Of a stretch of 64,000 nt of DNA, positions 44,095 to 60,893 are shown in pieces. The number at the start of each line of letters is the position of its first letter. The first letter of the stretch is position 1. Origin of the DNA: Terriglobia bacterium. Its GTDB lineage: Bacteria; Acidobacteriota; UBA6911. The stretch lies in assembly GCA_020072565.1 (NCBI GenBank), contig JAIQGI010000002.1, positions 62,001-126,000 of the forward strand. The letters are read 5' to 3'. The notes below the pieces were generated by a model. It had not been told where the DNA came from and ran no database searches. It saw only the letters and a list, made by a program, of their open reading frames with translations. A program made the position numbers and the translations under genes.

Positions 44095-46152
44095 ATGCTC
44101 GAATATTTATGGCTGGTTCCGATTCTACCGTTGGCTGGCAGCGCGCTCATCGGCCTGGTGGGGCTGATCAAGCTGCGGGCGACAGGCGAAAAGCCTGGAA
44201 AAAAGCTGGTCTCGCTGATTGCGCTCCTCTCGGTGGGCTTGGCATTCGTCATATCGCTGATCTCCATCTACCAGCTTTTCGTTTTGCAGGGAGGGGAGAT
44301 CTATGCGAAGGATCTCTTCACCTGGATTCGCAGCGGAGCATTGCCGCTTACCGACGGCGGGCGGGCGACGTTCGAAGTTCCCTGGGGACTTCAACTGGAC
44401 CCCCTATCGTCAGTGATGATCCTGGTCGTGACCGGTGTCGGCTTTCTGATCCATGTTTATTCCACCGGCTACATGTGGGAGGATACCGGGTACTACCGCT
44501 TCTTCTCTTACTTGAATCTCTTTATGTTCGCTATGCTCACGCTGGTGCTGGCGAACAACTTCCTGATGATGTTCGTAGGTTGGGAAGGAGTAGGGCTGTG
44601 CTCGTACCTGCTGATCGGGTTCTACTTCGACAAAAAGAGCGCGGGTGACGCCGGCAAAAAGGCTTTCATAGTAAACCGCATTGGCGATGCCGGGTTCATA
44701 CTCGGCATGATGCTGATATTTGTTCATTTCGGCTCCTTGCGTTTTGAAAAGGTTTTCGCCGGCGCTGCCAACCTGCCGGCACAGGACGGACACGGATTCC
44801 TGTTCTGGGCGACGCTCTGTCTTTTCATTGGAGCTACAGGCAAAAGCGCGCAGATCCCACTCTATGTCTGGTTGCCGGACGCCATGGAGGGTCCCACCCC
44901 CGTCAGCGCCCTCATTCACGCGGCAACCATGGTCACTGCGGGTGTCTATATGATCGCCCGGTGCAACGCCCTGTTCAGCCGGGCTCCGGAAACGATGGCA
45001 ATTGTCGCCCTCGTGGGTGCAGTGACGGCCATATTTGCCGCCACCATCGGAGTTGCGCAAACGGACATCAAGCGGGTTCTGGCCTATTCCACTGTGAGCC
45101 AGATCGGTTACATGGTTGCAGCCTTGGGCGTGGGCGCGTTCGTCGGGGGAATCTTTCACCTGATGACGCATGCTTTCTTCAAGGCTCTCCTGTTCCTTGG
45201 TTCGGGTTCGGTCATCATGGCCATGCATCATGAGCAGGACATGCGGAAGATGGGCGGACTGCGCAAGTATCTGCCCTGGACCTACTGGACCATGCTGATC
45301 GGGACGCTGACCATCGCGGGTGTGCCGGGTCTGGCAGGATTTTTCAGCAAAGATGAGATCCTCTGGCGTGCCTGGAGCAACGGGCACCCCTTTGTGTGGC
45401 TGCTGCTCTGGCTCAGCGCCGGTATGACCGCCTTCTACATGTTCCGCCTCATCTTCCTGACATTCTGGGGCGAAGAACGCATGGATGAGCATACCAGGCA
45501 TCACATTCGCGAGTCACCCAAGCGCGTCGTGTATCCCCTGGCAGCGCTGGCGATATTGTCGGTTGTAGGGGGGTATGTGGGTCTGCCTGGTTGGACGGGG
45601 GTGTCGAACAGCTTTGAGCGCTTTCTGGAGCCCGTCTTGCGGCTGCCGGAACCCGCGCACGAGGTCGCGGTTCACATGACCGGCCAGGAGTTTCTGTTCA
45701 CTTGCCTGTCCGTGGTGATCGCCCTGATCGGCATTTTCGTCGCCTACCGCCTCTATGTGGTCAACCCGGGAATCCCTGATCGGATCGCAAACCGGTTTAA
45801 GGGCCTGTACACTCTGATCCACCAGAAGTACTACGTGGATGAGCTCTATGACGCCTTGTTTGTGAACCGCACTAAGGATATCGGAAACGCGTGCTACTTC
45901 GTCGACTCGAAGTTCGTGGACGGCGCGGTCAATGGCACCGCCGCCACGACACGAGGCACGGCTACGTTATCCCGCCTCTTTGACACATATGTGGTGGATG
46001 GACTGGTGAATCTGGTGGGCTGGATCAACATGACGCTGAACCGATTCGCCACGGCGCTTCAGACGGGACTGGTGCAGCGCTACGCGCTGGGGGCGGTTTT
46101 CGGCATTCTGATTTTCATCCTGATTTACTACAACGGGCTGTTCAAGCTTTAG
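44095..46152 (+). CDS. nuoL: NADH-quinone oxidoreductase subunit L
   Basis: 685 aa antiporter-like proton-pumping subunit of complex I. Key charged membrane residues are visible: FVGWEGVGLCSYLLIGFY (TM5 Glu), ATGKSAQIPLYVWLPDAMEGPTPVSALIHAA (TM7 Lys and TM8 His) and HAFFKALLFLGSGSVIMAMHHEQDM. The C-terminal extension beyond residue 560 should provide the lateral helix and the last TM helix. Full length. The upstream genes expected in a nuo operon (nuoA to nuoK) are not here. Confidence 0.95.
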   Translation: MLEYLWLVPILPLAGSALIGLVGLIKLRATGEKPGKKLVSLIALLSVGLAFVISLISIYQLFVLQGGEIYAKDLFTWIRSGALPLTDGGRATFEVPWGLQLDPLSSVMILVVTGVGFLIHVYSTGYMWEDTGYYRFFSYLNLFMFAMLTLVLANNFLMMFVGWEGVGLCSYLLIGFYFDKKSAGDAGKKAFIVNRIGDAGFILGMMLIFVHFGSLRFEKVFAGAANLPAQDGHGFLFWATLCLFIGATGKSAQIPLYVWLPDAMEGPTPVSALIHAATMVTAGVYMIARCNALFSRAPETMAIVALVGAVTAIFAATIGVAQTDIKRVLAYSTVSQIGYMVAALGVGAFVGGIFHLMTHAFFKALLFLGSGSVIMAMHHEQDMRKMGGLRKYLPWTYWTMLIGTLTIAGVPGLAGFFSKDEILWRAWSNGHPFVWLLLWLSAGMTAFYMFRLIFLTFWGEERMDEHTRHHIRESPKRVVYPLAALAILSVVGGYVGLPGWTGVSNSFERFLEPVLRLPEPAHEVAVHMTGQEFLFTCLSVVIALIGIFVAYRLYVVNPGIPDRIANRFKGLYTLIHQKYYVDELYDALFVNRTKDIGNACYFVDSKFVDGAVNGTAATTRGTATLSRLFDTYVVDGLVNLVGWINMTLNRFATALQTGLVQRYALGAVFGILIFILIYYNGLFKL

Positions 46153-46197
46153 ATCTGGGAGGTCGTTCGGCCTTTCACAGCTGAGGAGTACGAACCG

Positions 46198-47775
46198 ATG
46201 GACTTCTTCATGGACAACATTCTGAACATAGTCTGCTATCTCCCCCTGGCCGGGATGGTAGTGATTATGCTCATCCCGCGGGAGAATGTGAAAGCCATCA
46301 AGTGGACGGCAAACATCGCGGCTTTTCTTGGCTTTCTGGTCTCCCTCCCCCTCCTGACTGCGTTCAACAATCCTAAGTACATTGACACAGCCTCGGGCTT
46401 CCGGTTCGTCTATAATCGCCCCTGGATCACGCTGATCGGCGCCAACTATAAGCTGGGGATCGACGGCATCAGCATGCTGCTCGTGCTTCTGACCACACTG
46501 CTGGGCACGGTCGCCATTCTCTCCTCGTGGACTGCGATCACCGAGCGCGTCAAGGAATACTACGCATTCATGCTCCTGCTCCAGACCGGGATGATCGGGG
46601 TATTTATTTCGCTCGACTTTCTCGTATTCTACGTTTTCTGGGAAGTGATGCTGGTGCCGATGTATTTTCTCATTGGGGTCTGGGGCGGGCCGAGGAAGCT
46701 GTATGCGGCAATCAAGTTCTTCCTGTACACGCTCGCCGGCTCCGTTCTGATGCTGGTCGGTATTCTGGCCATCTACTTCTATCAGTACAACACTACCGGG
46801 GTATACTCCTTCGACATCCTGAGATTCCAGAAGCTCGGGTTCCCGACCGATCTGCAGTTCTGGGTGTTCCTGGCTTTCTTTATCGGTTTCGCCATCAAAG
46901 TACCGATGTTTCCGTTCCACACATGGTTGCCCGATGCGCACGTGGAGGCACCCACGGCCGGTTCCGTAATCCTGGCGGGCGTGCTCCTGAAAATGGGAAC
47001 TTACGGCTTTGTGCGTTTCTCGCTGCCGATGTTCCCTTGGGCGACCATGCACTTCCTGAAACCATTATTGATTCTCTGCCTGATCGGCATTATCTACGGC
47101 GCCCTCGTAGCCATGATGCAGAAGGACATGAAGTCGCTGGTGGCTTATTCATCGGTCAGCCACCTCGGTTTCGTCATGCTGGGCGTTTTTGCTGCTACGC
47201 CTGTTGCACTGCAAGGCGGTGTCCTGCAGATGATCAATCACGGCATCTCCACGGGTGCCCTCTTCTTGATCGTGGGCATCATCTACGAACGACGCCACAC
47301 ACGCATGATTTCCGAATACGGTGGACTGAGCCACATCATGCCGGTGTACGCAACCGTTTTCATGGTAATGACGCTCAGCTCGATCGGCATGCCCGGTTTG
47401 AACGGTTTCATCGGAGAGTTCTTCATCCTCCAAGGGACGTTCGCCGCGCCCGGCCTCTGGATCTATGCCGCACTGGCGGTTCTTGGCATTGTGCTGGGCG
47501 CCGCCTATATGCTCTGGCTGTACCAGCGCGTGATGTTTGGCAAGCTCGAAAACCCGTCGAACAAAGCCCTGCCCGATCTCAACCTGCGGGAGTTCGCCAC
47601 TTTCGCCCCGCTGATCATTCTCGCTTTCTGGATCGGGATTTATCCGACCTTTTTTACCAAGTATCTTGATGAACCGGTGAATGCCATCGTCGCACGAGTG
47701 CGCACGGAATATTATTCCGGCCGCGCGGCGCTCCCCGCGCTACCTCCCACGATGCAAGTTACAGGCGCGAAATAG
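46198..47775 (+). CDS. nuoM: NADH-quinone oxidoreductase subunit M
   Basis: 525 aa antiporter-like subunit. YVFWEVMLVPMYFLIGVWGG carries the TM5 Glu, FAIKVPMFPFHTWLPDAHVEAPTAGSVILAGVLLKMG the TM7 Lys and TM8 His region, and LINHGIS-type HGISTGALFLIVGIIYERRHTRM the later helix. It starts 45 bases after nuoL. Complete, but nuoN does not follow; leftward gene debris begins two bases after the stop. Confidence 0.95.
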   Translation: MDFFMDNILNIVCYLPLAGMVVIMLIPRENVKAIKWTANIAAFLGFLVSLPLLTAFNNPKYIDTASGFRFVYNRPWITLIGANYKLGIDGISMLLVLLTTLLGTVAILSSWTAITERVKEYYAFMLLLQTGMIGVFISLDFLVFYVFWEVMLVPMYFLIGVWGGPRKLYAAIKFFLYTLAGSVLMLVGILAIYFYQYNTTGVYSFDILRFQKLGFPTDLQFWVFLAFFIGFAIKVPMFPFHTWLPDAHVEAPTAGSVILAGVLLKMGTYGFVRFSLPMFPWATMHFLKPLLILCLIGIIYGALVAMMQKDMKSLVAYSSVSHLGFVMLGVFAATPVALQGGVLQMINHGISTGALFLIVGIIYERRHTRMISEYGGLSHIMPVYATVFMVMTLSSIGMPGLNGFIGEFFILQGTFAAPGLWIYAALAVLGIVLGAAYMLWLYQRVMFGKLENPSNKALPDLNLREFATFAPLIILAFWIGIYPTFFTKYLDEPVNAIVARVRTEYYSGRAALPALPPTMQVTGAK

Positions 47776-48855: not shown

Positions 48856-49419
48856 ATGAAAATGTCTGAATGCCTGCACCAATGGATAATGGCGAACATT
48901 CAATTCGGTTTCGTGGTTTTCGAGAAGTGTTTTCACTGCAATGGCGTCAGAACCTATTTTACTAAAGAAGGAATTGCCGTTCTCGGAGAAGAGTATCGTG
49001 AAGGCGACCACTTCTGGCATCGGGTCGAAAACGCCCAGTCGTTCAGGTTCGATCTGAACTGTCCCATGTGCGGAGATGCGGAGAGGTTTGATGACTTGAT
49101 GGGCCTTCTTTACTGTACGGGGTGCCTGGCCGATTGCAGGCTGGAAATCCTGAGACAGGAACTGGAAGCCGGGCGCAACTACCTCGTGCTGGCCTGCGGT
49201 TTTCTCGAGGAAGGCGATATCAAGCCGAAGCAAGTCCAGCCCCGCAAGTTGAGCAAGCTCGCCCAATATTTCAACCAGCGGAGAGATCCCTCCCGGTTTA
49301 CAATCGCAATTGCTCCCTTCGACCTTGAAGACGGCTTTGCCAGATGCAAGGGTGAGTTTCTCCACGATATAGGAATGCTTTCCCCGGAACCCGTAACCAG
49401 TCGGAAATCCCCGTTCTAA
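48856..49419 (+). CDS. Cys-rich protein of unknown function, first gene of the redox cluster
   Basis: 187 aa, not recognised. Cys pairs: CFHC near residue 24, CPMC near 73, CTGC with a nearby C near 92-97, plus later single Cys in LACGF and FARCKG. The first two pairs could form one zinc ribbon or Fe-S site. The N-terminal half reads like a zinc-ribbon wrapped by beta strands (VRTYFTKEGIAVLGEEYREG); the C-terminal half is mixed alpha/beta. GGAG lies just before the start; ATG 48862 is an alternative with better spacing. Located 47 bases before the DRTGG gene, so it probably belongs to the sensing part of the cluster. Confidence 0.72.
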   Translation: MKMSECLHQWIMANIQFGFVVFEKCFHCNGVRTYFTKEGIAVLGEEYREGDHFWHRVENAQSFRFDLNCPMCGDAERFDDLMGLLYCTGCLADCRLEILRQELEAGRNYLVLACGFLEEGDIKPKQVQPRKLSKLAQYFNQRRDPSRFTIAIAPFDLEDGFARCKGEFLHDIGMLSPEPVTSRKSPF

Positions 49420-49466
49420 CTTATGAGGCGATTTCACGACGTGACTCGTGACTTAGGAGAACTGAC

Positions 49467-49802
49467 ATGACCATTCAAGAGCTGATCGAAAAGTTAGCGC
49501 TAAAGCCGTTAAGCAAGTTCGAAAACCGGACCGTTGCAGGTGTTTACATTTCCGACATGGTCAGCGATGTCATGGCCGGTGCCAAGTCAGGCGATCTCTG
49601 GCTCACAATTCAGACTCACAAGAGCATTGTACCCGCCGCCAATCTGGTGGATGTATCTGCAATTATCATTACGGGAGGCAAGCAAGTTCCTGCTGAGACT
49701 GTGGAATTCGCCAGCAAGTACGGCATTGCGATACTGGCGAGCGAACTGCCCACCTTCAAACTCGTCGGAAAGCTCTATGCACTGGGTGTGGGAGCGAGTT
49801 AA
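49467..49802 (+). CDS. Stand-alone DRTGG-domain protein
   Basis: 111 aa, one DRTGG domain: MTIQELIEKLALKPLS start, VAGVYISDMVSDVMAGAKSGDLWLTIQTH and AIIITGGKQVPAETVEFASKYGIAIL. Such small DRTGG proteins commonly accompany sensory [FeFe]-hydrogenase-like genes in anaerobes (recalled, not checked). The domain also occurs in Pta-type and CBS proteins and is thought to be regulatory. AGGAGA lies six bases before ATG. 261 mostly empty bases follow. Confidence 0.8.
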   Translation: MTIQELIEKLALKPLSKFENRTVAGVYISDMVSDVMAGAKSGDLWLTIQTHKSIVPAANLVDVSAIIITGGKQVPAETVEFASKYGIAILASELPTFKLVGKLYALGVGAS

Positions 49803-50063
49803 TCCGGGTTTTTCATGAAAGTTGCATGCTTTGGGGCCACCATTCAAGCGCAAATCCAAAATAAATGGGGTTGCAGAGCTTTTTGGACGCGGAACCAGTC
49901 TGCGTGCGTCGGCGTTTACCCGAGTTCGAAAACGCTTTGCGGACGGTATTTCGTGAATAGTCCGTGGTAATGATCCGGACTTCGATGTTTCTTATTGTAG
50001 CGCTCTGGCAGCAACCTCAGATGAGATATAGCGAGCGTATGTTGCGGAAACAGGGTACGGACT

Positions 50064-50861
50064 GTGCAGATCAGGCTGATTAAGGATGCTCTCGAAGCTT
50101 CCGTAATCGAGGGGGAGGACAATCTCGATATCGAGGTCGAGCACATCTATGCATCCGACCTGATGAGTGATGTCCTGGCTTTCGGAAAACCCAATTCGAT
50201 CCTGTTCACTGGGCTCGCCACCCAACAGGCCGTAATCTCCGCCCACATGGCGGAATTCAAAGGAGTGGTTTTCGTCCGTGGAAAAAAGTCCAAGGACGGG
50301 TCGAGCAAGGTCGCCCGCGACAATCACCTGGCCCTGCTCACCACGCGTTTCGACATGTACGATGCCTGTGTCAGGATCGATTCGGTCCGGCGGGGAACGG
50401 TACCTGCATCGGCGCCATCGTCTGTGGAACAAGCCCCTGCGGAGATGTCGCTGAGTCACCACGCGTTGATCCTGGGAAACGACTTTGCCAATGCGGGCAT
50501 GGTATCCACCGAAGTGAAATCCATTCTGAAGAAGATCGGGCTGAGTCCCAGGCTCGTCCGCAGGGTTGCCATCTCCACTTATGAAGGCGAGATGAATGTG
50601 GTGATGCATGCCGTTCGCGCCAAGGTGAGTCTGGTCGTGACACCCCGGTTGGTCGAGGTGACGATCGACGATGAGGGAAAGGGCATTCCTGACGTCGAAT
50701 TGGCCATGCAGGAAGGATTCACGACAGCAACCGAGGAGATGCGAGCCATGGGGTTTGGCTCAGGGATGGGGCTGCCCAACATCAAGAGAAACGCGGATGA
50801 ACTGAACATCAGGAGTGAGATCAACAAAGGCACCCGATTGATGATGAGATTCTTCATCTGA
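50064..50861 (+). CDS. DRTGG-like plus anti-sigma-type HATPase protein
   Basis: 265 aa from a GTG. Residues 1-115 are a DRTGG-like domain (VEHIYASDLMSDVLAFGKPNSILFTGLAT). Residues about 130-265 are a GHKL ATPase of the RsbW/SpoIIAB kind: N-box YEGEMNVVMHA, G1 DDEGKGIPD, G2 GFGSGMGLPNIKRNAD, and a closing NKGTRLMMRFFI. There is no phosphoacceptor His domain, so it is a serine-kinase or switch type rather than a classic histidine kinase. In related clusters both domains are usually separate genes; here they are fused. It precedes the H-cluster-like sensor by 37 bases. Confidence 0.82.
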   Translation: MQIRLIKDALEASVIEGEDNLDIEVEHIYASDLMSDVLAFGKPNSILFTGLATQQAVISAHMAEFKGVVFVRGKKSKDGSSKVARDNHLALLTTRFDMYDACVRIDSVRRGTVPASAPSSVEQAPAEMSLSHHALILGNDFANAGMVSTEVKSILKKIGLSPRLVRRVAISTYEGEMNVVMHAVRAKVSLVVTPRLVEVTIDDEGKGIPDVELAMQEGFTTATEEMRAMGFGSGMGLPNIKRNADELNIRSEINKGTRLMMRFFI

Positions 50862-50898
50862 ACAGCAGGCTTTGGAGCACCTGCACAGGAGGTGTACA

Positions 50899-52167
50899 AT
50901 GGAGCAATATTATCATGCTCACAAGATAGATCTCACAAAGTGTCGCGGCCGCTCGAAGTGCATGCGGCGCTGTCCCACTCAGGCCATCAGAATCAGGGGT
51001 GGCAAAGCAATTCGATCGGAAGATCTTTGTGTCGACTGCGGAGACTGCATGGCCGTGTGCCCTTCAGATGCTATCGTCCCGATTTCAGATCCTATCGGGG
51101 GAATCCCCGGTCGCAAATATAAAGTGGTAGTGCCCACCTCGGTACTCTACTCACAATTCGAACCCAGTATTCACCCATACATTGTTCATCTGGCCTTCAA
51201 AGAGCTTGGCTTCGACGAGGTCGTGGATGTGAGTCTCTCTTGTTCGACCGTGGCAAGGGCATACCTCAAGTACATGAAGACGCACCCGAAACTTCTACCC
51301 CTCATTGCCTCCGACTGTCCTACCACGATACGGCTGATCCAAGTGAAATATCCGGAACTGGTGGAGCACATTTCCCCGCTCGATGTGCCCAGAGAGCTGA
51401 CCGCCAAAGAGATAAAGACAAAGTGGCCGGCGAAGTTGGGCCTCAAGCCCGAGGAGATCAGTGTGGTTTATGTTACTCCCTGCCCGGCAAAGATTGTTTC
51501 CATCAAGCAACCTGCCGAGAAAGCGATCTCCTGGTTTGACGGGGCCATCCGTGTAAACGACGCATATTCCTTGCTGCTGCCGCACGTCCTCGCGATAAAG
51601 TCGCGATTCGAAAAGAGGCAGGTGCCTGAAGATTTTTGCTTCAGCATAGGCTGGGCAACGCTCGGGGGTATGACCCACGCGGTCAACATGGAAAACTGGC
51701 TGGCGGTTTCGGGGTTGGACCATGTGATGAAGATTCTCGACGATATCGAGAATTCGCGCTTGCGCAATGTGGATTTTGTAGAGGCGTTTGCATGTATGTT
51801 GGGATGCATTGGCGGGCCGTTTAACATTGAAAATCCCTATGTCGCCCGGATGAACAGCATTAAACAGAAAGAAAAGTATGAAAATCCGATCGAGATTAAT
51901 GACGACGAGATTGCGCGCAAACTTGATCAGGGGTACTACTTTTTGGAAAATCCGGTTATGCCGCGCCCGACCAAATACTTTGATACAGATCTGGAGACAT
52001 CAATAAAGAGAATGAAGGAGAGCGAGCGGGTGTTTCAGAAGCTTCCCCAGACGGACTGTGGTTGTTGCGGAGCGCCGACCTGCATGGCTTTTGCGGAAGA
52101 CCTGGTCCGCGGCGAGGCGAAACTCGAAAATTGCATTTTTCTGTCTGGGAAGGAACACGGTGGCTGA
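50899..52167 (+). CDS. Sensory-type [FeFe]-hydrogenase-like Fe-S protein
   Basis: 422 aa. N-terminal ferredoxin pair: the first cluster motif has Cys15, Cys21, Cys25 with Arg18 where a second Cys is usual; the second (CVDCGDCMAVCP) is complete. The hydrogenase large-subunit domain keeps DCPTTIRLIQVKYPELVEHI (Cys140, replacing the catalytic TSCCPxW), TPCPAK (Cys195) and FACMLGCIGGPFNIENP (Cys299, Cys303). The C-terminal FeS domain has CGCCGAPTCMAFAEDLVRGEA. This is the regulatory group C/D type, not a H2-producing enzyme. No PAS domain. AGGAGG lies seven bases before ATG 50899. Confidence 0.85.
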   Translation: MEQYYHAHKIDLTKCRGRSKCMRRCPTQAIRIRGGKAIRSEDLCVDCGDCMAVCPSDAIVPISDPIGGIPGRKYKVVVPTSVLYSQFEPSIHPYIVHLAFKELGFDEVVDVSLSCSTVARAYLKYMKTHPKLLPLIASDCPTTIRLIQVKYPELVEHISPLDVPRELTAKEIKTKWPAKLGLKPEEISVVYVTPCPAKIVSIKQPAEKAISWFDGAIRVNDAYSLLLPHVLAIKSRFEKRQVPEDFCFSIGWATLGGMTHAVNMENWLAVSGLDHVMKILDDIENSRLRNVDFVEAFACMLGCIGGPFNIENPYVARMNSIKQKEKYENPIEINDDEIARKLDQGYYFLENPVMPRPTKYFDTDLETSIKRMKESERVFQKLPQTDCGCCGAPTCMAFAEDLVRGEAKLENCIFLSGKEHGG

Positions 52168-52215
52168 GGCAGCGGCGCCAAAGGCCTCGAGGGTGTCCGA
52201 ATTGGAGGTTTAGCG

Positions 52216-52668
52216 GTGTCTAAAGATGATTATGCTCCTGTATTTTCGGCGTTTAGAGGTGAGGAAGGAGATTTGATCCCGATTCTTCAGGGAATCCAGG
52301 CAAGGCTGGGGTATATTTCCGAGGAATCTGTCAAGCATGTTTCACACTTTCTGAGGGTGTCTGAGAATCAGATCTTCGGGGTGGCCTCCTTCTATTCTCA
52401 GTTTCGTTTCACTCCGCCGGGCAGAAACTCGATCAAGGTGTGCCTCGGGACTGCTTGCCACGTAAGGGGTGGCCAGATTCTCAGCCAGTCCCTTGAAAGG
52501 GAACTCGGCATTCTGCCCGGACAGGCGACCGTAGACCGAAGATTCGATCTGCAGCGTGTCGCTTGCCTGGGCTGCTGTGCACTGGCGCCGGTCGTGGCGG
52601 TCAACAACGATATATACAGCCGAATGACCGTGATTCGGCTCAAAAAAACATTGAGTGAATATGAATAG
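52216..52668 (+). CDS. NuoE/HydC-like [2Fe-2S] subunit
   Basis: 150 aa thioredoxin-like ferredoxin subunit. The Cys pattern CLGTACHVRGG and, 40 residues on, CLGCCALAPVV supplies the [2Fe-2S] ligands. GDLIPILQGIQARLGYISEESV and FGVASFYSQFRFTPPG are typical NuoE/HndA/HydC blocks. GTG start with GGAGG seven bases upstream. It overlaps the next gene by eight bases. It pairs with the NuoF-like protein to accept or deliver electrons at NAD(H). Confidence 0.92.
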   Translation: MSKDDYAPVFSAFRGEEGDLIPILQGIQARLGYISEESVKHVSHFLRVSENQIFGVASFYSQFRFTPPGRNSIKVCLGTACHVRGGQILSQSLERELGILPGQATVDRRFDLQRVACLGCCALAPVVAVNNDIYSRMTVIRLKKTLSEYE

Positions 52669-54565
52669 TCTGCAGGCACTGAGGATCACCGCTCTGGAAC
52701 GATGGAGCCTGTTGAAAGATAACCGGATTCCCATCATTTATGTAGGCACGGCTTCCTGCGGCAGGGCTGCCGGGGCTCTGGCAGTGCTCGACACGATCAG
52801 GACCATCCTCGACGAAAAGGGGTTCAGTGCGAAGATCGTCGAGGTGGGGTGCATCGGACCGTGCTATCTGGAGCCTCTGGTGGATTTTCAACTGCCGGGC
52901 CGGCCCAGAGTGAGCCACGCCAACGTTACACCGGAAAAAGTTAAAAACCTCGTCAAATCCTATTTGGGCAGCGACAAGCCTCCGGTGGGTCTCGCAGTCG
53001 GCCATTACGGCGACAACGGATCCGAATTCACACAGAAGGTTCCCAGGTTCTTCGACCTGCCGATGCTGAAACCGCAGGTCAGAGTCGTGCTGAGAAACTG
53101 CGGCTTCATTGATCCTGAGCAAATCGATCACTACCTTGCCAACGACGGCTACCAGGGGCTCCTGAACGCGTTCACCAAGGGCCCGGAAGGAGTGATTGCG
53201 GAGGTCAGGGAAGCGGGACTAAGGGGCAGGGGGGGTGCGGGGTTTCCTACCTTTAAAAAATGGGAGATCTGCAGGAACGCTCCCGGCGCCACCAAGTACC
53301 TCATCTGCAACGCGGATGAGGGCGATCCGGGTGCATTCATGAACCGGTCACTGCTCGAGGGCGATCCGCATTCAGTTCTTGAAGGGATGTTGATCGCGGC
53401 CTATGCAATCGGCGCCTCTCACGGATATATCTACATTAGGGCGGAATATCCACTGGCGATCGTGCACCTCAAAAAGGCCCTGGCCCAGATGCGAGAGTAT
53501 GGGCTGTTGGGCGAGGACATTCAGGGCTCCGGCTTTGGGTTTGAAATCACAATCAAAGAAGGCGCGGGCGCTTTTGTCTGCGGCGAAGAGACTGCTCTGA
53601 TTGCTTCGATCGAGGGAAAGAGGGGCATGCCGAAATCACGGCCGCCCTTTCCGGCGATCGCCGGCCTGCACGGCATGCCTACCATTATTAACAACGTGGA
53701 GACTCTGGGGACCCTGCCGAACATCTTGCGGAATGGCGCAGCCTGGTACCGGCAGTTCGGCATTCAGGGAAACCACGGCACCAAAACCTTTTCGCTTGTC
53801 GGCAAAGTTCGCCGCCCGGGTCTGATCGAGGTGCCTCTCGGCATGACGCTCAGGAAGATCATCTTCGATGTAGGCGGGGGTACCGCGAAGAAATTCAAGG
53901 CAGTACAGACGGGCGGGCCCTCGGGTGGTTGCCTCTCGGATGAGTTCCTCGACATGACGGTCGATTATGAGTCTCTCGGTGCTGCCGGATCGATCATGGG
54001 ATCGGGGGGGCTCATCGTGATGGATGAGGACACCTGCGTGGTCGACCTGGCTCGATATTTTCTCGACTTCACTCAGAAGGAGTCCTGCGGTAAGTGCTCC
54101 CCCTGCCGCGTCGGCTCCAGGCACCTGGTGGAGATTCTCGAAAGGATTACCAAGGGACAAGGTCAGCCGGAAGACCTGGCCAAACTCCAGAATCTGGGCG
54201 AAACCGTAAAGCGGGGGGCACTGTGCGGCTTGGGCCAGACGGCTCCCAACCCGGTCTTGACCACGCTTCGCTACTTCCGGCCCGAATATCTGGTGCATGT
54301 GGCCGATAAATTTTGCCCGGCGACCGTCTGCCGGGAACTGCTCGAGTACCGGGTGATCCCCGAGAAATGTACCGGGTGCCAGCGATGTGTCAGCGTATGT
54401 CCGACCGGCGCCATCGTAGGACCCAGGGCGGAGCCGCATAATCTTGACCCATCCAAGTGCATCAAGTGCAGAGCTTGTTATGAGATTTGTCGCTTCGACG
54501 CCATAGCCGGAGATGCGATTGTCATCAGGTCCAAACGGAGAGGTTCGGATGAACAGCGGGCATGA
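52661..54565 (+). CDS. NuoF/HydB-like FMN, NADH-binding subunit with extra ferredoxin domains
   Basis: 634 aa. N-terminal thioredoxin-like [2Fe-2S] part (TASCGRAAGALAVLD, VGCIGPCYLEPLV), then the Nuo51 FMN/NADH domain (AGLRGRGGAGFPTFKKWE, YLICNADEGDPGAFMNRSLL), SLBB, and the [4Fe-4S] motif SCGKCSPCRVG with Cys in GALCGLGQTAPN. The C-terminal ferredoxin has two cluster motifs (CTGCQRCVSVCP, CIKCRACYEICR). This is the HydB/HndC layout of bifurcating hydrogenases and the recalled Stn transhydrogenase. ATG 52661 overlaps the NuoE-like stop; GTG 52655 is an alternative. Confidence 0.93.
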   Translation: MNSLQALRITALERWSLLKDNRIPIIYVGTASCGRAAGALAVLDTIRTILDEKGFSAKIVEVGCIGPCYLEPLVDFQLPGRPRVSHANVTPEKVKNLVKSYLGSDKPPVGLAVGHYGDNGSEFTQKVPRFFDLPMLKPQVRVVLRNCGFIDPEQIDHYLANDGYQGLLNAFTKGPEGVIAEVREAGLRGRGGAGFPTFKKWEICRNAPGATKYLICNADEGDPGAFMNRSLLEGDPHSVLEGMLIAAYAIGASHGYIYIRAEYPLAIVHLKKALAQMREYGLLGEDIQGSGFGFEITIKEGAGAFVCGEETALIASIEGKRGMPKSRPPFPAIAGLHGMPTIINNVETLGTLPNILRNGAAWYRQFGIQGNHGTKTFSLVGKVRRPGLIEVPLGMTLRKIIFDVGGGTAKKFKAVQTGGPSGGCLSDEFLDMTVDYESLGAAGSIMGSGGLIVMDEDTCVVDLARYFLDFTQKESCGKCSPCRVGSRHLVEILERITKGQGQPEDLAKLQNLGETVKRGALCGLGQTAPNPVLTTLRYFRPEYLVHVADKFCPATVCRELLEYRVIPEKCTGCQRCVSVCPTGAIVGPRAEPHNLDPSKCIKCRACYEICRFDAIAGDAIVIRSKRRGSDEQRA

Positions 54566-57048
54566 GGTAAACGTCACTATCGACAATCAGGCCCTCAAAA
54601 CGGAAAAGGGGCTGACCATCCTTCAGGTTGCCGAGCGCAACAATATCTATATTCCAACACTCTGCGCCCACAAGGATCTGACCCCCTTCGGCGGGTGCCG
54701 CATGTGCATCGTTGAGGTGGACAAGATGCGCGGACTCCCCACAGCCTGCACCACTCCGGTTGAGGACGGTATGGTGATCCGGACTCGCACGGCCCAGGTT
54801 CATGCCGTGAGGCAGGAGATCCTGCAACTCATCCTGAGCGAGCACACCTCGAGTTGTTTGATCTGTGACGAAAAGGAGGAATGCAAGCTTTTCTCCACCA
54901 CCATCCGTAAAGCAGGCGTCACCACGGGTTGCCGATACTGTCCGAACGACCAGCAATGCGAGCTGCAGAAGGTCGTGGAGAGCCTGGAACTCAAGGAAAT
55001 CGGCTATCCCATCTATTATCGCAATCTGCCGGTGGAAAAGGACGACCCGTTCTTTGATCGGGACTACAACCTCTGCATCCTGTGCGGCAGGTGCGTCCGA
55101 ATGTGCCAGGACGTTCGTACGGCCGGCACTCTGGCCTTTTCTCAGAGAGGACCTAAGACGGTCATTGGCCCGGCTTTTCAGCGCACCCATTTGGACGCCG
55201 GCTGTGAATTCTGCGGCGCATGCGTCTCCGTTTGTCCTACCGGAGCTCTCTCGGAGAGGGCCCGCAAGTGGGAGGGGAAGCCGGAGCGTGAAGAACCTAC
55301 GACGTGCCCGCTCTGCGGTGTCGGGTGCCAGATGCGCCTTCTGGTGAAGGGCAACGCAATCATGGGCACAATGCCGGCGGATGATCCCCTGATCAATGAC
55401 GGACAGCTATGCGTGAAGGGGAGGTTCTGTATCACGGAACTTGTGAATGGTCATCAGCGCCTGCAGAAACCCTACCAAATTCAAAACGGCACCAAAGCAC
55501 TGATCAGTTGGGAACAAGCCATCGACCTGGCCGCGGCACAACTCTCTGCCTGCGCGCCGGAGGATTTCGGCATGCTCATTTCCCCCAACTGCGGCAACGA
55601 GGATCTATACATCGCCCAGAAGTTCGTTCGCGTCGCGATGAAGTCACATCACATCGATAATTCTGCGCGGATTTTCTATGGTTCCGCGTATAGCGCCTAC
55701 CTCGACCTCCTGAAGAGCTCTGTTCCCCTTTCCGACCTGCAGAAGGCTTCTGCCGTCGTCTGCCTGGGGCTTGATGCCAGATTTGGCAGATCCGTCGTTG
55801 GGGTCGAACTTCGCAAGGCGCTTAAGAGAGGCGCAAAGGTCATCACGATCCATCCCCGGCATCACAGCCTCGGCACCATCAGTGACTGCTGGATCCGGCC
55901 GGCTCCTGGCACGGAGATGGACATCTTTCTCTCTCTCGCGAGTCTCACAGGCAAGGACGCCGCATCGGAATGCGCCGGCGATTGGGGAGCCGAGCTCCGT
56001 GCGACTGCAGGGCTCCTGAAGGAAGCGACGGCGCCTGTGCTGCTGGTGGGCTCGGAGTTCCTGCACTATGATGCCGGCGCGGACATCCTGAAGGCAATTG
56101 CCCAGGTCGCTCAGAACACAGGGGCCGGGATTGCACTACTCCCCGCGCACAACAATCTGCTGGGCACGATCTTGATGGGGGCGTGTCCGGAGATTCTGCC
56201 CGGCGGTGCTTCCTCCACGAATCACGGCAGCAGCCGCGAGATCGGCCGGCGATGGGATGCGGCAATTCCGGAGGGACAACCTTCGTGGAATGCCGCCGGC
56301 ATCTCGTCATCGAAAAAGCTGAGGCTGCTCTACCTGGTTGGCGAGGTTCTGCCCAATCTGCGGTCCCATGCCGAGTTTTCGATCTTTCAAAACATCTATC
56401 CTCCGGACCCCTTCGATGATGCAGACCTCGTCCTTCCTGCGGCCGCCTTCGGCGAGGCCGAGGGCACGGTCGTCAACGGCGAGGGGCGAATCCAACGGCT
56501 CGCCAAGGCCGTACCGCCTCCAGGTCAGGCCCTGGCTGATTGGCAGATCATCTGCCGGATCGCCGGGAAAATGGGTGTGACAGGATTCGATTTCGCCGAC
56601 GTCGCCGAGATTCAAAGAGAGATCTCGTCGCTGGCACCGGAGTTGGCAGTGTTTGAGGACAAATCCCGGACATGCCATCGCATGTCTTTCAACGGGAGAT
56701 CCTCCGCGGCTGCGACCAAACGGGGCTCGGCAAAAAAGCGGAACGACCGATTCCCTCTCGTGCTGAGCGTGCGCCTGAATGAGCACACCTATCGGGGCTT
56801 CCCCCTTTCAGCCTGGGTTGAGGGAACGAGGAAGATCTTCGCGGAGGGAGTCGTCGAAATCAGCCCGAAGGACGCAGCCGAAGCTGCAATAGCCGACGGC
56901 GAAAATATCGTCCTGACCTCCGACCACGCCGAGAAGATCCTGCCGGCACGGATACTGGAAGATCAGCCGGAAGGAGTTCTCCACGCGGTTCTGCAGCAGA
57001 GCGAAGCCGTTAATCCCAACCCACTCCGTGTCAGGATAAGGAAAAGCG

Positions 57049-57056
<8 letters not shown>
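54549..57056 (+). CDS. NuoG-like Fe-S protein with a molybdopterin-oxidoreductase fold, no catalytic Cys/Sec
   Basis: 835 aa. Cys39, 50, 53 and 67 hold a [2Fe-2S] cluster; H99-C103-C106-C112 a His-Cys3 [4Fe-4S]; C176-179-182-186 and C219-222-225-229 two more; C253-256-260-288 the cluster of the molybdo-fold. At the spot where formate dehydrogenases carry Cys or Sec it reads ARIFYGSAY (373-381), so no formate dehydrogenase active site. A molydop-binding C-terminus remains (RFPLVLSVRLNEHTYRGFPL). It probably serves as an electron-wiring subunit, like NuoG. It overlaps both neighbours in sequence. Confidence 0.85.
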
Positions 57057-59321
<2,265 letters not shown>

Positions 59322-59780: not shown

Positions 59781-59825
59781 CCACACCGTTCATCAAACGT
59801 GATGTTTACAGGCAGGGAGGATGCA

Positions 59826-60893
59826 ATGCATAAATCATATCTAGGAATACTACTGATCGGAATGTTTGCCGTGCTTAGCTTTAGCACCGGCTGTGGTAAG
59901 AGCGCAGCCCCACCGCCCAGCCCCGTCGCAATCGATGCCGCCAGGCTGCAGCCTTTTGCTCCTTTGCCGGCAGTGATGACATCTGCATCGAACTCGATCA
60001 CGGATGAGAAGGTCGTATTGGGCAGGATGCTTTATTACGAGCCGCGCTTGTCCAAGAGCCAGAAAATCGCATGCAACACCTGCCACCTCCTCGACAAATA
60101 TGGCGTGGATGGGCAGGCGACGTCTGACGGGCATAAAGGCCAATTGGGCAATCGTAATGCTCCCACCGTCTATAACGCCGCCGGTCACCTGGCACAATTC
60201 TGGGACGGCCGCGCCGCGAATGTCGAAGAGCAGGCAAAAGGGCCGGTGATGAATCCGGTTGAAATGGCCATGGACTCTGAAGAAGAAGTCATCGTGGTTC
60301 TGAAGTCGATGCCGGAATATGTCACGGCGTTCAAGAGCACATTCCCGGGAGAGAAGGACCCCGTAACTTATGACAACATGGCCAAAGCCATCGGCGCCTT
60401 TGAACGCAGGCTGGTAACACCTGCCCGTTGGGACAAGTTCCTCGGCGGTGACCAGAACGCACTGACTTCCGATGAGAAGGCCGGATTTAACGCCTATGTC
60501 GAGGCCGGATGCCAGACGTGCCACGCGGGCGCGTATCTCGGCGGAAACCTCTATCAGAAATTGGGCATGGTGAAACCGTGGCCGGATGCATCCGATCCCG
60601 GGCGGGAGAAGATCACCAAGAGCGAGGCTGACCGCATGGTATTCAAAGTGCCTTCGCTGCGGAACATCGACAAGACCGGACCTTACTACCACAACGGCAA
60701 GGTCGCGACATTGGAGCAGGCCGTCTCCCTGATGGCGGAATATCAGCTTGGCAAGTCGCTCACGGATGCCCAAACCAAGTCGATCACCACATGGCTCGGG
60801 GCCCTGACTGGAGATATCCCGGCTGAGTACGTCAAGGAGCCGGTCTTGCCGAAAAGCACGGCCAGAACTCCAAAGCCGGACATATCGGATTAA
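59826..60893 (+). CDS. Dihaem cytochrome c peroxidase/MauG-like lipoprotein
   Basis: 355 aa. A lipoprotein signal ends LSFSTGC. Two haem c motifs: CNTCH near residue 80 and CQTCH near 235. YDNMAKAIGAFERRLVTP, VPSLRNIDKTGPYYHNGKVATLEQAV are family blocks of bacterial di-haem peroxidases. It reduces hydrogen peroxide in the periplasm with electrons from small cytochromes. GGGAGG precedes the ATG by about six bases. Alone rightward, convergent with the glycosidase-like gene. Confidence 0.9.
   Translation: MHKSYLGILLIGMFAVLSFSTGCGKSAAPPPSPVAIDAARLQPFAPLPAVMTSASNSITDEKVVLGRMLYYEPRLSKSQKIACNTCHLLDKYGVDGQATSDGHKGQLGNRNAPTVYNAAGHLAQFWDGRAANVEEQAKGPVMNPVEMAMDSEEEVIVVLKSMPEYVTAFKSTFPGEKDPVTYDNMAKAIGAFERRLVTPARWDKFLGGDQNALTSDEKAGFNAYVEAGCQTCHAGAYLGGNLYQKLGMVKPWPDASDPGREKITKSEADRMVFKVPSLRNIDKTGPYYHNGKVATLEQAVSLMAEYQLGKSLTDAQTKSITTWLGALTGDIPAEYVKEPVLPKSTARTPKPDISD

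Follow-up and report, generated by a model that had tools for sequence, protein, structure and literature searches.

Sensory [FeFe] hydrogenases of groups C and D (HydS) are assumed to be H2 sensors, with little physiological proof. The closest described protein to the one considered here is TamHydS, a group D HydS (M2e) with a ferredoxin domain holding two clusters, an H-domain, a C-terminal FeS domain, and no PAS domain. Replacement of its proton-path residue E252 leaves <0.01% of H2 oxidation (PMC10407848), and its C20A variant, in which iron is labile, shows no [4Fe-4S]+ signal and a weak signal at g=2.02 and does not form a functional holoenzyme (PMC13104023).

We analyzed a stretch of 64,000 nucleotides from a Terriglobia bacterium (the window), in which a gene for a 422-residue HydS-like protein is the fourth in a row of nine genes (48856-59321; Table 1). 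The protein is a confirmed, conserved variant of group D HydS in which arginine takes the place of the second cysteine of the first ferredoxin motif. At the level of titles and abstract openings, mostly outside subscription journals, we found no description of a HydS lineage with a basic residue at this position.

Table 1. Features of the nine-gene row and of the HydS-like protein encoded within it
Feature	Positions	Strand	Length (aa)	Details
Gene 1	48856..49419	+	187	no Pfam or NCBIfam match
DRTGG-like protein	49467..49802	+	111	
Anti-sigma-factor-type HATPase protein	50064..50861	+	265	N-terminal half weakly DRTGG-like
HydS-like protein, Arg18 variant	50899..52167	+	422	group D-like [FeFe]-hydrogenase fold
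First ferredoxin motif	50941..50976	+		C15-x2-R18-x2-C21-x3-C25-P
Codon 18	50950..50952	+		CGC (Arg)
Second ferredoxin motif	51028..51060	+		C44, C47, C50, C54; complete
L1 loop	51310..51321	+		S138-D139-C140-P141; Asp in place of the proton-transfer Cys, ligand Cys retained
L2 loop	51475..51492	+		TPCPAK (C195, K198)
Residue 258	51670..51672	+		Met, at the position of the group D proton-path Glu (TamHydS E252)
L3 loop	51781..51807	+		E295-AFACMLG-C303
C-terminal FeS domain	52042..52140	+		PF04060; C387, C390, C395, C412
NuoE/HydC-like subunit	52216..52668	+		
NuoF/HydB-like subunit	52655..54565	+		C-terminal ferredoxin domain
NuoG-like subunit	54513..57056	+		FdhF-like molybdopterin domain
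NfnA-like subunit	57049..57891	+		FAD/[2Fe-2S]
NfnB/GltD-like subunit	57900..59321	+		NADPH-binding

A group D-like HydS with a basic residue in its first ferredoxin motif

Pfam assigns several Fer4 families to the N terminus of the protein, the [FeFe]-hydrogenase C-terminal domain (PF02906), and a PF04060 FeS domain to the C terminus, with no match to a PAS domain. The AlphaFold model (mean pLDDT 85.4) resembles [FeFe] hydrogenases in the PDB, the 50 matches listed having TM-scores of 0.58-0.68 when normalized to the query. Domain matches and fold together give the ferredoxin domain, H-domain, and C-terminal FeS domain of a HydS. The NCBIfam hydrogenase models score below their cut-offs (TIGR02512, 85 versus 406 bits; TIGR04105, 118 versus 450 bits), and with TIGR02512 below cut-off and an SDCP L1 loop lacking the CpI-type cysteine pair, the protein does not have the marks of a catalytic group A enzyme.

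An earlier note on this DNA had described a first motif with Cys15, Arg18, Cys21, and Cys25 and an intact second motif; the ORF translation bears out both. Two complete N-terminal [4Fe-4S] motifs would be usual for a HydS; here Arg18 interrupts the first, which shares a replaced second cysteine with the CXX?XXC(X)nCP type of [3Fe-4S] ferredoxin site. The column of Arg18 is cysteine in HydA2 of the H2-dependent CO2 reductase (alignment to 7qv7). By numbering carried over from TamHydS R30/R32 to Arg31/Arg33, TamHydS C17 corresponds to residue 18 and C20 to Cys21. By comparison with hydrogenase structures, the cluster at residue 18 is the distal, surface-near one and a natural entry point for electrons.

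To place residue 18 among homologues, we drew on a scan of GTDB contigs (80 loci) and on the genomes of two phyla, that of the window (297 genomes) and that of a Zixibacteria record, L005 (132 genomes). The first scan was based on peptide patterns of the query, and the sample is skewed to close relatives. Removal of 14 duplicates from 133 rows gave 119 distinct homologues. Left out of these are the window gene's own copies (L081, L084), a paralogue record already counted as L082 (L083), distant sequences (L110-L113), two with the N terminus outside the matched frame (L056, L079), rows below 120 bits, and the loci collected for context (L114-L125).

Among the 119, residue 18 is Cys in 69, His in 28, Arg in 21, and Lys in 1, with no other residue present, and C15, C21, C25, C44, C47, C50, and C54 are cysteine in every row. 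Whenever the cysteine is missing its replacement is basic (50 of 50), yet S, G, D, N, or Y could be reached by one-step mutation from CGY or CAY. The rows with a basic residue 18 (basic-18) that carry a name belong to Zixibacteria, Calditrichota, Acidobacteriota, Bacteroidetes, Ignavibacteria, Eisenbacteria, and Aminicenantes; clostridial rows in which the site is present have Cys18 throughout. The earlier note had proposed to check whether close homologues consistently lack the cysteine; all 50 rows of the lineage do.

A sequencing error at codon 18 was considered and ruled out. Because the non-Cys rows come from independent assemblies, Arg18 is not a lone read error, and because the nearest neighbors of the window protein have His18, an error at this codon would not restore a cysteine. 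A scan for Cys or polar residues conserved in basic-18 rows (at least 85%) and not in Cys18 rows found no substitute cysteine ligand, and the objection that a ligand from elsewhere in the protein might complete the cluster finds no lineage-specific conserved cysteine to rest on. The same scan picked out the adjoining Met19 as gained in basic-18 rows (33 of 36); it could lie close to the cluster.

In a 105-row tree, residue 18 changes twice, although the starred branches force only one change, and two long-branch rows (L102, L104) break the basic-18 grouping. A 71-row tree built without L102, L104, L087, L109, and most clostridial rows has one change, on a branch with a support of only 23, so a single origin of basic-18 is neither shown nor excluded.

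Proton path, maturation genes, and gene neighborhoods

The statement in the earlier note that the L2 and L3 cysteines are kept stands, whereas its claim that the catalytic L1 pair is lost proved only half right: Asp139 occupies the proton-transfer position equivalent to CpI C299, but Cys140 is invariant. Cys299, the presumed [4Fe-4S]H ligand equivalent to CpI C499, is present in the window protein; His replaces it in 17 of the 50 basic-18 rows (among them L129, L135, and L013), compared with 0 of 68 Cys18 rows. The window protein retains the L2 cysteine, the L2 lysine, and the [4Fe-4S]H ligands, so that its H-cluster pocket is not destroyed.

The proton path of group D is largely gone. We placed columns 258, 255, 271, and 295 as TamHydS E252, S249, D265, and E289 by spacing and by conservation in Cys18 rows rather than by alignment to TamHydS, using the proton-path conservation given in PMC10407848. 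With the columns so placed, the window protein has M258, L255, and S271 and keeps only E295. The losses of Glu258 and Asp271 are linked to residue 18: of the 69 Cys18 rows, 61 have Glu258 and 51 have Asp271, and neither occurs in any of the 50 basic-18 rows. A second HydS-like gene in the window's own genome (G000, contig C38:45487-46728; L082, L083, L154) keeps Cys18 and has also lost Glu258.

The window's genome (98% complete) has no HydG (TIGR03955), HydF, or group A HydA above cut-off, and the protein itself retains the cubane ligands of the H-cluster. HydG is above cut-off in only 2 of 50 basic-18 genomes (own genome, 0/1; other batches, 2/25, 0/8, and 0/16). HydF exceeds its cut-off in the same two among 34 examined; both are Acidobacteriota (L013/L014, genomes G101/G063) that also encode HydA. 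Completeness is known for 11 basic-18 genomes, all at least 90%, and 9 of these 11 lack HydG. Among 26 genomes of the window's phylum, HydG and group A HydA occur in the same 7. Many Cys18 genomes also lack HydG (10 of 15 in the window's phylum and 5 of 8 among clostridial MAGs), and we therefore rejected its absence as a mark of residue 18. The idea of a normal H-cluster sensor, with which the earlier note began, fits poorly with a lineage in which the group D proton path is gone and 48 of 50 genomes lack HydG.

Downstream of the HydS-like gene, the NuoF-like protein has its best PDB matches among bifurcating-type B subunits, namely T. sibiricus NfnB, StnB, and HydB (names in part after PMC10482914). 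In the FdhF-like domain of the NuoG-like protein, alignment puts Phe at the position of the formate dehydrogenase catalytic Cys. As judged from the genes, the NuoG, NfnA, and NfnB set resembles a split Stn-like transhydrogenase. Promoter and terminator scans gave results at chance level. Relatives of the 187-residue opening protein stand at the same place in several phyla. Genes named by eye flank the row: complex I NuoL- and NuoM-like genes upstream (44095-47775) and a cytochrome c peroxidase-like gene downstream (59799-60893).

All nine genes recur at 13 of the 18 closest loci; four others (L002, L009, L011, L012) end at contig edges, and L007 has no match for the first two genes despite a long contig. 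The same nine also surround an Arg18 gene in another genome of the phylum (L118, G116). Further afield, the ATPase genes are constant across lineages, NuoE/NuoF accompany them in most loci with a long enough contig, and the third component varies among a HydA-sized protein, NiFe-Hdr, StnC-like, and split NuoG/Nfn sets. Clostridial Cys18 loci have NuoE, NuoF, and a HydA-sized neighbor, and two Cys18 relatives (L122, L123) adjoin an apparently fused StnC, with NuoG-like and GltD-like parts in one long frame. The Eisenbacteria loci (L019-L022) have Hdr-like genes in some cases and no NuoE/NuoF match. Another Cys18 gene (L125, G054:C160) adjoins NfnB and a fusion of NuoG with NfnA; its genome encodes HydG, HydF, and HydA.

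Arg18 loci of the Aminicenantes type have Hdr-NuoEF sets, as do the Lys18 locus (L119) and the Cys18 paralogue of the window's genome. The paralogue neighbors HdrABC-like, NuoEF, HdrA-like, and MvhD genes and small and large NiFe-hydrogenase-type subunits; the neighboring large-subunit ORF has intact NiFe motifs. Such a large subunit with intact motifs also occurs at 5 of 10 loci searched (L114, L115, L116, L119, L120), and none was found within the stretch covered at L117, L118, L124, L019, and L022. The partner complex was rejected as a mark of residue 18, as Arg/Lys18 and Cys18 genes both accompany Hdr-NuoEF sets and window-like sets occur with both (L118, Arg18; L125, Cys18).

Function of the basic-18 lineage and comparison with known systems

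Taken at the level of sequence, the window protein most likely senses redox state and carries out no H2 chemistry. Our preferred reading, at a probability of roughly 0.55, is that a lineage derived from group D HydS has moved off H2 chemistry, presumably dispensing with the [2Fe] subcluster, and acts as an Fe-S redox sensor for a NuoE/NuoF-type bifurcating complex, here the Stn-like transhydrogenase. Electrons from the ferredoxin or pyridine-nucleotide pool would enter the N-terminal ferredoxin domain, where the outer cluster (C15, residue 18, C21, C54) would be held by three cysteines together with a selected basic residue and have a higher potential or be labile, so that the protein would answer to a redox window other than that of its Cys18 relatives. 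The neighboring DRTGG and anti-sigma-type ATPase proteins, as candidate signaling partners, would receive its redox state, and the complex served would be the ferredoxin/NAD/NADP transhydrogenase encoded directly downstream. That a three-Cys site could alter redox sensing had been proposed in the earlier note, and the restriction of residue 18 to His, Arg, or Lys in 50 of 50 lineage rows supports it. The nonfunctional TamHydS C20A weighs against the preferred reading: a Cys18 protein is intolerant of losing this cluster, and the basic-18 lineage must have adapted.

Two arrangements of the outer site are compatible with a redox sensor. It is quite possible, at somewhat less than even odds, that three cysteines bind a [3Fe-4S] cluster, with residue 18 covering the open corner and tuning the potential. 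All Mycobacterium marinum ferredoxins of the CXXHXXC(X)nCP type examined contained [3Fe-4S] on isolation, their potentials ranging from -340 to +230 mV, according to PMC6237146, and TamHydS C379A yields a [3Fe-4S] cluster at another site. Precedent leans toward this arrangement; however, the residue here is H, N, Y, S, T, or F in the P450-partner type (same paper), and the exclusively basic residues of the HydS lineage suggest that the side chain does more than cover an open corner. The pattern also speaks for a second arrangement, which we advance tentatively, in which His, Arg, or Lys serves as a nitrogen ligand of a [4Fe-4S] cluster that is possibly labile or switchable. A Lys-ligated [4Fe-4S] cluster is reported from cryo-EM of StnC, where K170R keeps half the activity and K170A and K170C lose most of it (PMC10482914), and arginine is a cluster ligand in biotin synthase (PMC11138216). 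Against it, His at the same position gave [3Fe-4S] in the P450-partner ferredoxins studied (PMC6237146). The H/R/K-only pattern leans slightly toward a required basic side chain.

More speculatively, and on balance doubtfully, the lineage may comprise hydrogenase-fold sensors without a [2Fe] site in which Arg, His, or Lys N-ligates a ferredoxin-type [4Fe-4S] cluster and the ferredoxin/NAD(P)H balance is relayed to anti-sigma-type ATPases controlling bifurcating transhydrogenases.

The protein might instead still sense H2 with a full H-cluster, only the electron exit being altered. The retained L2 and L3 ligands and Cys140, and the two basic-18 genomes with HydG, HydF, and HydA, speak for this and against a loss of H2 chemistry, and the Aminicenantes-type Arg18 genes adjoin NiFe-hydrogenase large subunits whose motifs are intact, which may give H2 a role at those loci. 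With E258 and D271 lost in all 50 basic-18 rows, position 139 next to the ADT taken by a bulky Y, F, or H in 33 of 50, and HydG so rarely present, we consider an H2 sensor improbable. A degenerate, nonfunctional remnant, as the loss of one cluster cysteine and of catalytic residues might suggest, is very hard to reconcile with intact frames, invariant remaining ferredoxin cysteines, and an operon conserved in several phyla.

A large lineage of the same fold without the proton path and mostly without maturases, standing beside non-[FeFe] bifurcating complexes, raises the possibility that the older shared task of these proteins is redox sensing for HydBC-type bifurcation. In addition, naturally occurring proteins with His, Arg, or Lys at a single corner of the cluster form a ready series for the influence of a basic residue on the type and potential of the cluster.

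Compared with TamHydS, the window protein has the same domain order, the same loss of the L1 proton-transfer cysteine, the equivalents of R30/R32, and the retained Glu295. It differs in the replacement of the second cysteine of the first motif by Arg (His or Lys in relatives), in the lost equivalents of E252 and D265, in a genome without HydG or HydF above cut-off, and in a gene that does not adjoin an [FeFe] hydrogenase. The M. marinum P450 ferredoxins have the same cysteine replaced, often by His, but are small, single-cluster proteins that use many residues there, Arg and Lys not being among those named in the passages of PMC6237146 drawn on here. The neighboring genes resemble Stn (StnABC) and the Bfu/HydABC family in their NuoE, HydB-type NuoF, NuoG whose FdhF-like domain has no catalytic Cys, and NfnB/GltD module; the FdhF domain of StnC is likewise inactive (PMC10482914). 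Unlike Stn, this predicted transhydrogenase set has the parts of StnC as separate genes and an added NfnA-like gene.
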